This document shows positions 25,125 through 28,595 of a stretch of 36,745 nt of DNA, piece by piece. Numbering within the stretch: the first letter of the stretch is position 1; the number at the start of each line of letters is the position of its first letter. Source of the stretch: an uncultured Gammaproteobacteria bacterium. Lineage in GTDB: Bacteria; Pseudomonadota; Gammaproteobacteria; Arenicellales; CALHMG01. The DNA is taken from NCBI GenBank assembly GCA_938034705.1, contig CALHMG010000186.1, positions 69,110 through 105,854 on the forward strand, given 5' to 3'. The notes beneath the pieces are model-generated. The model was not told the origin of the DNA and made no database searches. It saw nothing but the letters and a program-made list of their open reading frames with translations. Both the position numbers and the translations under genes were made by a program.

Positions 25125-26219
25125 ATGAGAGGTCCACAAAACCAGTCCGTGCCCCCGGGGATGCTTGCGCAGGGCGCGCAGAATCTTCTGCGCGGCTGTA
25201 TGGACGTTCGCCCCGGTCAGTCGATGCTGATGGTGTGCGAGGACCCGTCTGAAAACTATTACGACACGGTAGCGCCCGAGGCCGTTGCGCAAGCGGCCGT
25301 TGCGGCAGGGCTCAGGGTTTCAAAGATAACCGCACCGGTTGTCGAATGTGCTGACAGCCTGCCGGACGATCTTGTCAGCGCCATGAGCGATGTGGATCAC
25401 ACCGTATTCTTTGCGCGCATTGGCGATCAGCTGCGGTTTACGCCAAACAGTTTCAGAAACCCGCCCGTTATCATGTACACGATCGACGGCGAGATGCTGG
25501 GATCGAGTCTGGGTACGTCGTGCTTCTCGACGTTCTACCGCATCAAGCGATGTTTTGACCTGCTCGCCGAGAACGCCAGGGAAATTCACATCACCTGCCC
25601 TGCCGGTACCGACATCAGGGGTTCGATCAAAGCCGGCAGCGTTACGGAGGAAGTCAGCGCTCGACGTTTTCCCTGGCTCGTTACGCAACCGGTGTGTGCG
25701 TCCGGGTTCTCGGGTCAGATTGCGCTGACGAAATTTTTGACCGGTACCGGCACTCACCGATATTCGCCCTACACGCGATTGCTTGGAGGCACGGTGATGG
25801 CGCTCATCGAAAGCGGGTACGTTGTCGACCTTGAGGGTGCAGCGGCCGATGTCGCGATAGTGCGTTCGCATCATCTCGATATCGCGAAACGCTACGGGCT
25901 TGATCCGTGGCGAGTGCATTCATGGCATGCGGGAATACACCCCGGCTGCGGCTACCACAAGGCCGCGTCAGAACACTTTGAGCGCTGGAGCGGGGCTGCT
26001 TTTGGCAATCCGCGAATCCTCCACTTTCATGCATGCGCTGACTCGCCGCCGGGCGAGATCTCGTGGAACCTCTTCGATGCGACGGCGAAGTTTGATGGCG
26101 AGGCGGTCTGGGAGAATGGTGCAATTCGCGCGACGCGAGTCCCAGGTCTCAGCGATGTTCTCGACTCAAGCGGTCTTGGCAACCTCTTTGCCAACCCGGA
26201 TCGATCGATCGGTCTCTAG
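25125..26219 (+). CDS. M29 aminopeptidase/NicX-like metalloprotein, function unknown
   Basis: A 364-residue soluble protein. The N-terminal part (GAQNLLRGCMDVRPGQSMLM) and the C-terminal part resemble the superfamily that holds thermophilic M29 aminopeptidases and 2,5-dihydroxypyridine dioxygenase (NicX). Candidate metal ligands cluster in WHAGIHPGCGYH (His268, His272) and LHFHACADSPPGEISW (His300, His302, Asp306). NicX uses two His and one Asp for iron, so a mononuclear metal site is plausible. The exact reaction is unknown. Its stop shares a CTAG with the stop of convergent prmC. AAGGG lies only 2 bases before the ATG, so a later start cannot be ruled out. Confidence 0.55.
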   Translation: MRGPQNQSVPPGMLAQGAQNLLRGCMDVRPGQSMLMVCEDPSENYYDTVAPEAVAQAAVAAGLRVSKITAPVVECADSLPDDLVSAMSDVDHTVFFARIGDQLRFTPNSFRNPPVIMYTIDGEMLGSSLGTSCFSTFYRIKRCFDLLAENAREIHITCPAGTDIRGSIKAGSVTEEVSARRFPWLVTQPVCASGFSGQIALTKFLTGTGTHRYSPYTRLLGGTVMALIESGYVVDLEGAAADVAIVRSHHLDIAKRYGLDPWRVHSWHAGIHPGCGYHKAASEHFERWSGAAFGNPRILHFHACADSPPGEISWNLFDATAKFDGEAVWENGAIRATRVPGLSDVLDSSGLGNLFANPDRSIGL

Positions 26220-27049
26220 ATTCGACCTTCGGTGACACGTTCGTTCGTGCTCAGATCCCGATGCGTGACGACACTCGCGTAGCCGGCGTTTTCAAGCATG
26301 CTTCGGGTCGCGAGGCCTTGATCAAAACCATGTTCAAGCAGCAGCCAGCCGCCGGGCTTGAGGTGCGGCCGGGCGCCTGAGCAGATTGCGTGGAGATCAT
26401 CGAGTCCCTCGGGACCTGCGGTGAGCGCGGCACGAGGCTCAAAGCGAACGTCGCCCTGCTTCAGGTGCGGATCGTCATCGGCAACGTAGGGCGGGTTCGA
26501 AACAATCACGTCGAATTGCCGTGACTCGAGCATCTCGAACCAGACACTTTGAATGAACTCGATGTGCTCGAGCCGATGCGTTCGTGCGTTGGCTTTGGCG
26601 ACGGTGAGCGCGGCCGTGCTGACGTCGGTTGCGGTGACGTTGGCGCGAGGTCGCTCGCTGGCGATAGCGAGGGCAACGGCGCCACTGCCGGTGCCAAGAT
26701 CAAGAACGTTTACGGCTTTGTTGACCGGCACATGCTTGAGCGCCTGTTCTACCAGCAGCTCTGTCTCCGGCCTTGGCACGAGAACATCAGGGGTTACCTC
26801 GAGACGCATCGACCAGAATTCCCGGTGGCCCGTGATGTGGGCAACCGGCTCACCTGCCAGCCGGCGCATGACGGCATTCTGGTACGCGAGGCGCTGCTCG
26901 GCGCGCGGTGTTTCGTTGCCCTGGCTGATCAGGCCGGCTCGAGTGAGCGAAAAAACTTCACACGCAAGGGCGTTGGCGTCGATGCGTGCGGTCGCGCTGA
27001 CCGCACCAAGGCGGCCTGTTGCGTCGACAATAAGCTGTTCAAGCGTCAG
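26216..27049 (-). CDS. prmC: Peptide chain release factor N5-glutamine methyltransferase, CTG start
   Basis: PrmC methylates the GGQ glutamine of release factors. The SAM motif LDLGTGSGAVALA and catalytic NPPY (185-188) are clear, with RLAGEPVAHITGHREFW and VLVPRPETE before them. Translation upstream of the first ATG (26869) continues in frame through a normal PrmC N-terminal domain (LTLEQLIVDATGRLG, then ATARIDANALACEVF). It reaches the prfA stop without any ATG, GTG or TTG. The only likely initiator is CTG at 27049, 3 bases after the prfA UAA, with GAGAG 9 bases before it. That start gives 277 residues, the same length as E. coli PrmC. Starting at the ATG would delete 60 conserved residues. 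Confidence 0.88.
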   Translation of the reverse strand: MTLEQLIVDATGRLGAVSATARIDANALACEVFSLTRAGLISQGNETPRAEQRLAYQNAVMRRLAGEPVAHITGHREFWSMRLEVTPDVLVPRPETELLVEQALKHVPVNKAVNVLDLGTGSGAVALAIASERPRANVTATDVSTAALTVAKANARTHRLEHIEFIQSVWFEMLESRQFDVIVSNPPYVADDDPHLKQGDVRFEPRAALTAGPEGLDDLHAICSGARPHLKPGGWLLLEHGFDQGLATRSMLENAGYASVVTHRDLSTNERVTEGRI

Positions 27050-27052
27050 GGC

Positions 27053-28138
27053 TTAACTCTCGTTAAGTGCCGCGAGCTGATCAGCCTGGTGTTCAGACAC
27101 CAGAGGTTCGATGACCTGATCAACGTCGCCGCCGATGACTTCGTCGAGTTTGTACAGCGTCAGATTGATGCGGTGATCGGTGACCCGGCCCTGGGGGAAA
27201 TTGTAAGTGCGGATTCTCTCCGAGCGATCACCGGATCCGACGAGACTCTTGCGGGCCGCGTCCGTTTCGCTTTTTTGTTCGCTGCGCTCCTTGTCGAGAA
27301 TGCGTGCGTGCAGCACGCCCATCGCGCGTGCCTTGTTCTTGTGCTGCGAACGTTCGTCCTGACACTCGACGACGATGCCTGTTGGCAGATGAGTGATGCG
27401 CACCGCTGAATCCGTACGGTTAACGTGCTGGCCGCCGGCGCCGGACGCGCGGTAGGTATCGATACGCAAGTCGGCCGGGTTGATGTCGATGTCGTCGATC
27501 TCGTCCGCTTCCGGGATGACGGCAACGGTGCATGCGGAGGTGTGAATCCGCCCCTGGGATTCCGTTTCGGGTACTCGCTGAACGCGATGAGCACCGGACT
27601 CGAACTTCAGGCGCGAGTACGCGCCACGTCCAACCACTCTGGAGATAATTTCCTTGTAGCCACCGTGCTCGCCGTCACTCTGGTTCAGAACCTCAACGCT
27701 CCAGCGCCTGCTCTCGGCGTAGATTTGATACATGCGAAAGAGGTTGCCTGCGAAAATTGCGGCCTCGTCACCACCGGTGCCCGCCCTGATTTCCAGAAAA
27801 ATATTGCGGTCATCGTTGGGGTCTTTGGGAACCAGCAGTTTCTGCAGGCTCGCCTCGCAGTCTTCGAGCTGCTGCTTGAGTGGCCCTATTTCTTCCGACG
27901 CCATTTCGCGAATGGATTCATCGGCGTCAGCGGCCATGGCTTCGGTGTCGGCGATCTCGTCGATCAGACGTTGCTGGGTCTGAAACGCGTCGACAACCGG
28001 ATTGAGTTCGGAAAGCTCGATCGAGAGCGCGCGAAACCTGTTCTGGTCGCCGATAACGTCCGGGTCGGACAGCAGCGCGTTGATTTCTTCAACACGCTCC
28101 ACGACCTGTTCGAGTTTTGCCGCAAGAGATTTGTTCAT
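27053..28138 (-). CDS. prfA: Peptide chain release factor 1
   Basis: A 361-residue RF1. The stop-codon recognition tripeptide is P-E-T (190-192, in [14 protein letters not shown]), fitting the PxT motif of RF1 and not the SPF of RF2. The peptidyl-hydrolysis motif is GAGGQHVN, with Gln237 the PrmC target. RF1 terminates translation at UAA and UAG. Its own stop is UAA followed by GCC, and prmC continues in the same frame. In gammaproteobacteria hemA normally lies directly upstream; here 457 bases without a gene precede the ATG. Confidence 0.97.
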
Positions 28139-28595
28139 GATGTCGCGTTTAATGTCACGCTGCCGGTGAGGGTGTCAAGGGACATGCCTGACGTTGTGCG
28201 TTCCGGTGCCGTGTTTAAGCTCAAGATTGGAAGTCCCGGGTGATCGAATGGCCGGACACAGTCGTACATAGACTATGGCAATTACGAACGCGGTGCTCGG
28301 GATCCGGCGCGGAACTTTTCGGGGCCGACGCGATCTCAAGATCAGTCCCGGACGTCACCGGCATGCGACGCTGGCGAGGCGCAAAAACCGGATTGGCAAT
28401 AGCCAGCCCGCCCGGTCGCGGATCCCCCCGTTTCGTCGGGCCGCTGGACCTGCAGGTGGCGAGTGACATGGTTAAGACCGGGTTCATGGCATATCTTGTA
28501 AAAACAGCCCAAAACACCATTTTGTCCGGCAAATCGGCCGGCGGTGGACTGATATAGTTCCAAGAGACGGCGCTACCGAAGGCAGGGAGCATTCA
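28139..28595. other. 457-base divergent region without a gene (prfA / TPR protein)
   Basis: No credible coding sequence. A 123-codon minus-strand frame here has no family resemblance. In related genomes hemA usually occupies this position beside prfA, and I see no remnant of it. The region must hold the promoters for prfA-prmC and for the TPR-lolB-ispE genes. A TATAGT hexamer at about 28554-28559 could be the -10 box of the TPR gene, but no good -35 box is found 17 bases before it. Confidence 0.55.

Follow-up and report, generated by a model that had tools for sequence, protein, structure and literature searches.

Based on profile searches, alignments and a survey of related loci, we found that prmC in the window (the whole stretch of DNA that was analysed, 36,745 nucleotides from an uncultured gammaproteobacterium) lacks any ATG, GTG or TTG where its conserved coding region begins, a state that is rare among prmC loci. 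Translation of this gene probably begins at a non-standard CTG codon at positions 27049-27047 of the minus strand, and likely does so by reinitiation after prfA. The sequence-only reading had offered CTG initiation coupled to termination as its simpler explanation, and the 3-base gap between the two genes, the complete N-terminal domain and the initiator methionine of a relative in the same alignment column support it as the best one.

Junction of prfA and prmC

Both genes lie on the minus strand. The upstream gene, prfA (27053..28138), runs from an ATG to a UAA and encodes a release factor 1 of 361 aa, which scored 555.2 bits against NCBIfam TIGR00019 (cut-off 423.25). Its 3' end reads AAC GAG AGT TAA and is followed in frame by GCC CTG ACG CTT GAA CAG CTT ATT, with a 3-base gap, one codon, between the UAA (27053..27055) and the proposed CTG start codon (27047..27049). 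Counted from this CTG, prmC (26216..27049) encodes a release factor N5-glutamine methyltransferase of 277 aa; the TAG that closes its frame ends at 26216, and the frame holds 278 codons from stop to stop. The first standard start in the frame is an ATG (26867..26869, Met-Arg-Arg-Leu) at codon 61 from the CTG, in agreement with the earlier claim that prmC has none directly after the prfA UAA. A second internal ATG (26807..26809) is where the database gene call, P0001, begins. The proximity of the two genes is shared with other loci, as prfA was detected beside prmC in 209 of the 248 loci surveyed.

The assignment of the product to PrmC was clear (298.3 bits against TIGR03534, cut-off 199.1), and N185, P186, P187 and Y188 of the NPPY motif were invariant in an alignment of 11 sequences. 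Residues 5-74, counted from the CTG, matched the PF17827 PrmC_N profile over its full length (1-71 of 71). This match was absent in the piece begun at the internal ATG, and also in the relatives P0003 and P0005 as recorded. A start at the internal ATG thus drops conserved sequence, as had been proposed, at a cost of 60 residues and the PrmC_N match. The CTG was also correctly said to restore the usual length, since the initiator Met of P0004, which is 61% identical over its length, falls exactly in the CTG column of the alignment. The alignment with P0004 is gap-free from residue 1, with 35 of 60 residues identical in residues 1-60, and residues 8-60 are identical to P0002 at 30 of 53 positions. 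Among solved structures, E. coli HemK/PrmC (1t43 and 2b3t, the latter being the complex with RF1) ranked top by sequence comparison, with residues 13 to 276 aligned.

On the other side of prfA, hemA is absent from the stretch between prfA and the divergent upstream gene (28139-28595). In many gammaproteobacteria hemA sits beside prfA. No glutamyl-tRNA reductase above the TIGR01035 cut-off was found in the same genome, and a 5-aminolevulinate synthase (TIGR01821, 647.6 bits) was found in it (L222, G000:C351). As the genome is 85% complete, hemA may lie in its missing part.

Relatives, other prmC loci and the choice of start codon

The protein itself is recorded as P0001 from an internal ATG onwards, with 197 aa, so that the gene caller removed 80 of the 277 residues and passed over an available ATG (26869) as well. 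The closest PrmC relatives, P0003 (73% identical) and P0005 (about 72%; 71-73% for the pair), come from other assemblies and are recorded as 221 aa only, beginning at the Met equivalent to the internal ATG at 26869. When the search was scored on residues 82-277 alone, which gives full-length proteins no advantage, 4 of the best 120 of 7,997 matches were shorter than 230 aa, namely the top three (P0001, P0003 and P0005) and the more distant P0282. P0002 is recorded from residue 8 and is 7 residues short, which is weak evidence.

P0003 is known from four contigs, the longest of size 7089, P0005 from a contig of size 3716 and P0002 from one of 8103. Two RF1 proteins of 361 aa, P0123 (94% identical) and P0122 (93% identical), have the same source and size as the contigs of P0005 (3716) and P0002 (8103), respectively. 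As a complete RF1 goes with the same source and size, these two contigs seem to run through prfA, and the contig of at least one of the two closest relatives seems to include a complete prfA; no separate RF1 was tied to the contig of P0003 among the matches listed. From these records we infer that P0003 and P0005 also have a non-standard start and that the CTG may be conserved among them, although the truncated records could instead stem from a badly chosen start in gene calling. The record P0282, a PrmC of 209 aa that starts with MAYLTG and lacks PrmC_N, may be due to a frameshift, to a wrong gene call or to another non-standard start.

The survey comprised 248 partly redundant prmC loci, the present one included: 80 from a GTDB scan, 31 (with the present one) plus 71 from the order, and the rest from the class, where 30 loci and 40 of the further listed places were taken from the search. 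L002 (another methyltransferase) and L216-L222 (not prmC loci) were dropped before counting, and L112, L184, L185, L186, L200 and L212 were dropped as repeats. Some redundancy is left in the counts: L004, for example, nearly duplicates L007, certain genomes contribute two loci, and the two collections may have species in common. With the G.REFW motif as anchor, 247 of the 248 loci were readable, the exception being L178. Only the present locus (L001) and L094 had no ATG, GTG or TTG in the 50-130 codons before G.REFW (2/247), where a standard start within that stretch is counted as available and is not proof of use. Two further candidates, L148 and L080, were rejected as artefacts of the N-terminal extension of the P0010 query, and both have an ATG.

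L094 belongs to another family of the same order (genome G040) and reads TCA GGA GAG TAA T CTG CTG ACT ATC GGC. Its CTG CTG is located at the expected start position behind AGGAGAG, a strong Shine-Dalgarno-like stretch with a duplex energy of -7.8 kcal/mol. In L094 no standard start appears in frame until a TTG some 26 codons downstream, and because of that TTG a shortened protein is possible in this locus. L102 (G041), from the same genus, carries an in-frame GTG immediately ahead of the prfA stop. A tree of 59 rows grouped L001, P0003 and P0005 in one clade (support 100/97), with P0002 and P0004 next to it, and placed L094 apart, together with L102. The well-supported branches of this tree require the start-less label to have changed at least twice, with P0002 counted under that label.

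Some variation was also observed at other loci. In L193 (G401) the column where the start is expected reads CTG ACG ATC, but there is also an in-frame ATG, 12 codons further upstream and overlapping the 3' end of prfA. In L178 (G031) only residues 84-272 match, and the N-terminal part was alignable to no query. In L083 (G024) and L107 (G023) the prmC frame runs on without a stop for 666 and 678 codons and spans prfA, which is read in a different frame; this is probably compositional.

These loci bear on the possibility that the real start is an ATG (or GTG or TTG) obscured by one wrong base from sequencing or assembly of the MAG contig. The CTG is one base away from three standard starts, and the genome (G000) is a draft of 380 contigs at 85% completeness. 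GTDB holds no other genome of its genus or family, and the GTDB contig scan gave prmC relatives at most 54% identical. However, the two closest relatives share the truncated gene call in other assemblies, and the order-mate G040 has CTG CTG at the same place. A frameshift or indel error was rejected on the ungapped alignment with P0004 from residue 1. Given that the records of the two closest relatives start no earlier than the equivalent internal Met, a base error is probably not the explanation, and we consider it improbable.

A codon-score scan of the 105,854-base contig gave 89 gene-like frames, among which prmC had the top coding-like segment before any standard start, scoring 16.3 across 61 codons. 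The next frames scored 6.3 and 5.8, and prmC alone exceeded 10. CTG starts as a general habit were rejected, as the state was seen in 1 of the 89 frames on the contig. If translation began at the internal ATG at 26869, PrmC would here lack its N-terminal domain, which is exactly what gene callers report for P0003 and P0005. However, the 60 codons ahead of this ATG score as coding, first among the 89 frames, and encode the full PrmC_N match and the 35 residues identical to P0004; E. coli 2b3t also aligns across this region from residue 13 on. Additionally, the internal ATG has no Shine-Dalgarno (SD)-like stretch (+0.2 kcal/mol), and a start at this position is very unlikely.

SD duplex energies were determined as pairing with an assumed 3' end of 16S rRNA, for prmC over the 20 bases before the CTG. 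A weak SD-like stretch, GAGAG (27057..27061), is present within the last prfA codons, 12 to 8 bases before the CTG. The sequence-only reading had identified this motif but placed it nine bases upstream, whereas 7 bases lie between. The stretch pairs as a 3-bp match only and gave a best duplex of -3.0 kcal/mol; the median across 171 further prmC starts was -2.5. After the UAA the only near-cognate candidates are the CTG, an ACG (27046) and an ATT (27031, codon 7). Both ACG and ATT are in frame near the N-terminus, and AUU starts E. coli infC (PMC9845219), but neither codon is aligned with the Met of P0004. The ACG reached the same -3.0 kcal/mol but with a shorter spacing, and the ATT (+0.4 kcal/mol) has no SD-like stretch. 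The CTG is therefore the best placed of the near-cognate candidates, the others being worse by position or SD pairing, and there is little chance that either of them is the start.

A small hairpin, CTTAAC-GAGA-GTTAAG (27052..27067), is looped at GAGA, and its 3' arm includes the UAA. Neat as it looks, it was rejected as a structural signal, since it is ordinary by energy: -4.1 kcal/mol alone (27067-27052), a z of -1.24 for the 81-base fold, rank 59 among 168 prmC 5' regions for the energy of the region, and equally low energy in 169 of 500 shuffles. A perfect 6-bp hairpin was found in 6 of the 168 prmC 5' regions, and the hairpin of L094 is weaker (rank 101/168). Being energetically unexceptional, the hairpin is no pillar of the case; its opening by ribosomes on prfA would be compatible with coupling, as a possible detail that is suggestive only.

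Shared frame of prfA and prmC

The sequence-only reading had pointed to the common frame of the two genes and to a feedback loop like that of prfB, in which readthrough of the UAA would yield an RF1-PrmC fusion. The first part is correct in the window, where one codon separates the genes and readthrough would give a product of 640 residues. As a kept feature the common frame did not hold: among 207 other adjoining loci, the standard prmC start was in frame with prfA in 42 (less than a third), at +1 in 65 and at +2 in 100, the commonest offsets being -4 (35 loci), -8 (25) and -1 (20). The CTG of L094 is also out of frame with its prfA. With 42 of 207 loci in frame and L094 in another one, there is no sign that selection keeps the shared frame.

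The feedback itself was not borne out. The prfA stop is UAA and not UGA, and RF1 and RF2 alike recognise UAA (PMC5373646). As both release factors read UAA, unlike the UGA of prfB, a shortage of RF1 alone would not cause readthrough. The RF1 proteins P0122 and P0123 also end at 361 aa. Taken with the frames above, this makes a regulatory fusion the most improbable of the explanations weighed here.

Coupled initiation and known systems

Initiation at the CTG coupled to termination of prfA accounts best for the locus. Ribosomes that finish prfA would remain on the mRNA, retained there by GAG(AG) within the final prfA codons, and fMet-tRNA would be placed on the CUG three bases past the UAA. The closeness of prmC to the prfA stop, which is common among the loci, suits termination-reinitiation. 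In E. coli, re-initiation is described as enhanced by SD sequences and reduced by distance (PMC2268962); at the present junction the start lies 3 bases past the stop, and the SD-like duplex (-3.0) is weak and near the median (-2.5).

As CUG is a poor initiator, the output of PrmC would be low relative to that of RF1, which would suit an enzyme that modifies its substrate once. Neither the wild-type initiator tRNA nor its M1 variant is described as initiating efficiently on CUG, and CUG initiation complexes are described as less stable (PMC11497404). A change from AUG to CUG was reported for just 2 of 61,358 reconstructed AUG starts (PMC5622118). An excess of IF3 is reported to lower re-initiation and to inhibit initiation from non-canonical starts (PMC2268962). 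Ribosomes that idle at stop codons under depletion of release factors are reported to reduce the expression of downstream genes within 30 nt (PMC8073009). Because of this effect, PrmC made from the CTG site would probably fall when termination slows, if the report extends to the present organism.

A more speculative extension, to which we give a rather low probability, is that prmC in at least two lineages of the order arrived independently at CUG behind the prfA stop. The codon would then be kept because it is weak, depends on IF3 and is used only by ribosomes coming from prfA, so that it sets the ratio of PrmC to RF1. If true, this would be a built-in dimmer, through which termination and initiation quality control would act on the activity of release factors.

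Bacterial CUG starts are very seldom recorded, one reason being that gene callers ignore them. A search of the literature by titles and abstracts, with subscription journals mostly outside it, gave no mention of prmC starting at CUG. A conserved domain that overhangs the front of a called gene offers a way to find such genes. As a small clade apparently retains a CUG start in this termination-machinery gene and a second case occurs in the order, the locus would provide a natural test of weak starts in coupled operons.

On our best reading, the CTG of prmC is a further case beside known rare start codons such as the AUU of infC. The latter gene is autoregulated by its own product, IF3, which inspects the start codon. 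As in infC (PMC9845219), a gene of the translation machinery here has a start other than AUG, GUG or UUG, which would limit its expression. Unlike in infC, the codon is CUG and is set behind a stop codon, and direct autoregulation is not expected, because PrmC is not known to act in initiation. The locus also resembles termination-reinitiation pairs, in which the start lies a few bases from the upstream stop and an SD-like stretch lies in the upstream gene (PMC2268962, PMC6728339, PMC10666635). The pairs described in those papers have standard starts, typically overlapping as ATGA or TGATG, whereas here a CTG follows after a 3-base gap. A third likeness is with the programmed frameshift of prfB, as both concern a release-factor operon with possible translational feedback. 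The prfB frameshift is described as autoregulatory (PMC8073009). In prfB an in-frame UGA and a +1 shift lie within one gene, whereas prfA and prmC encode two complete proteins that are parted by a UAA and need no shift.
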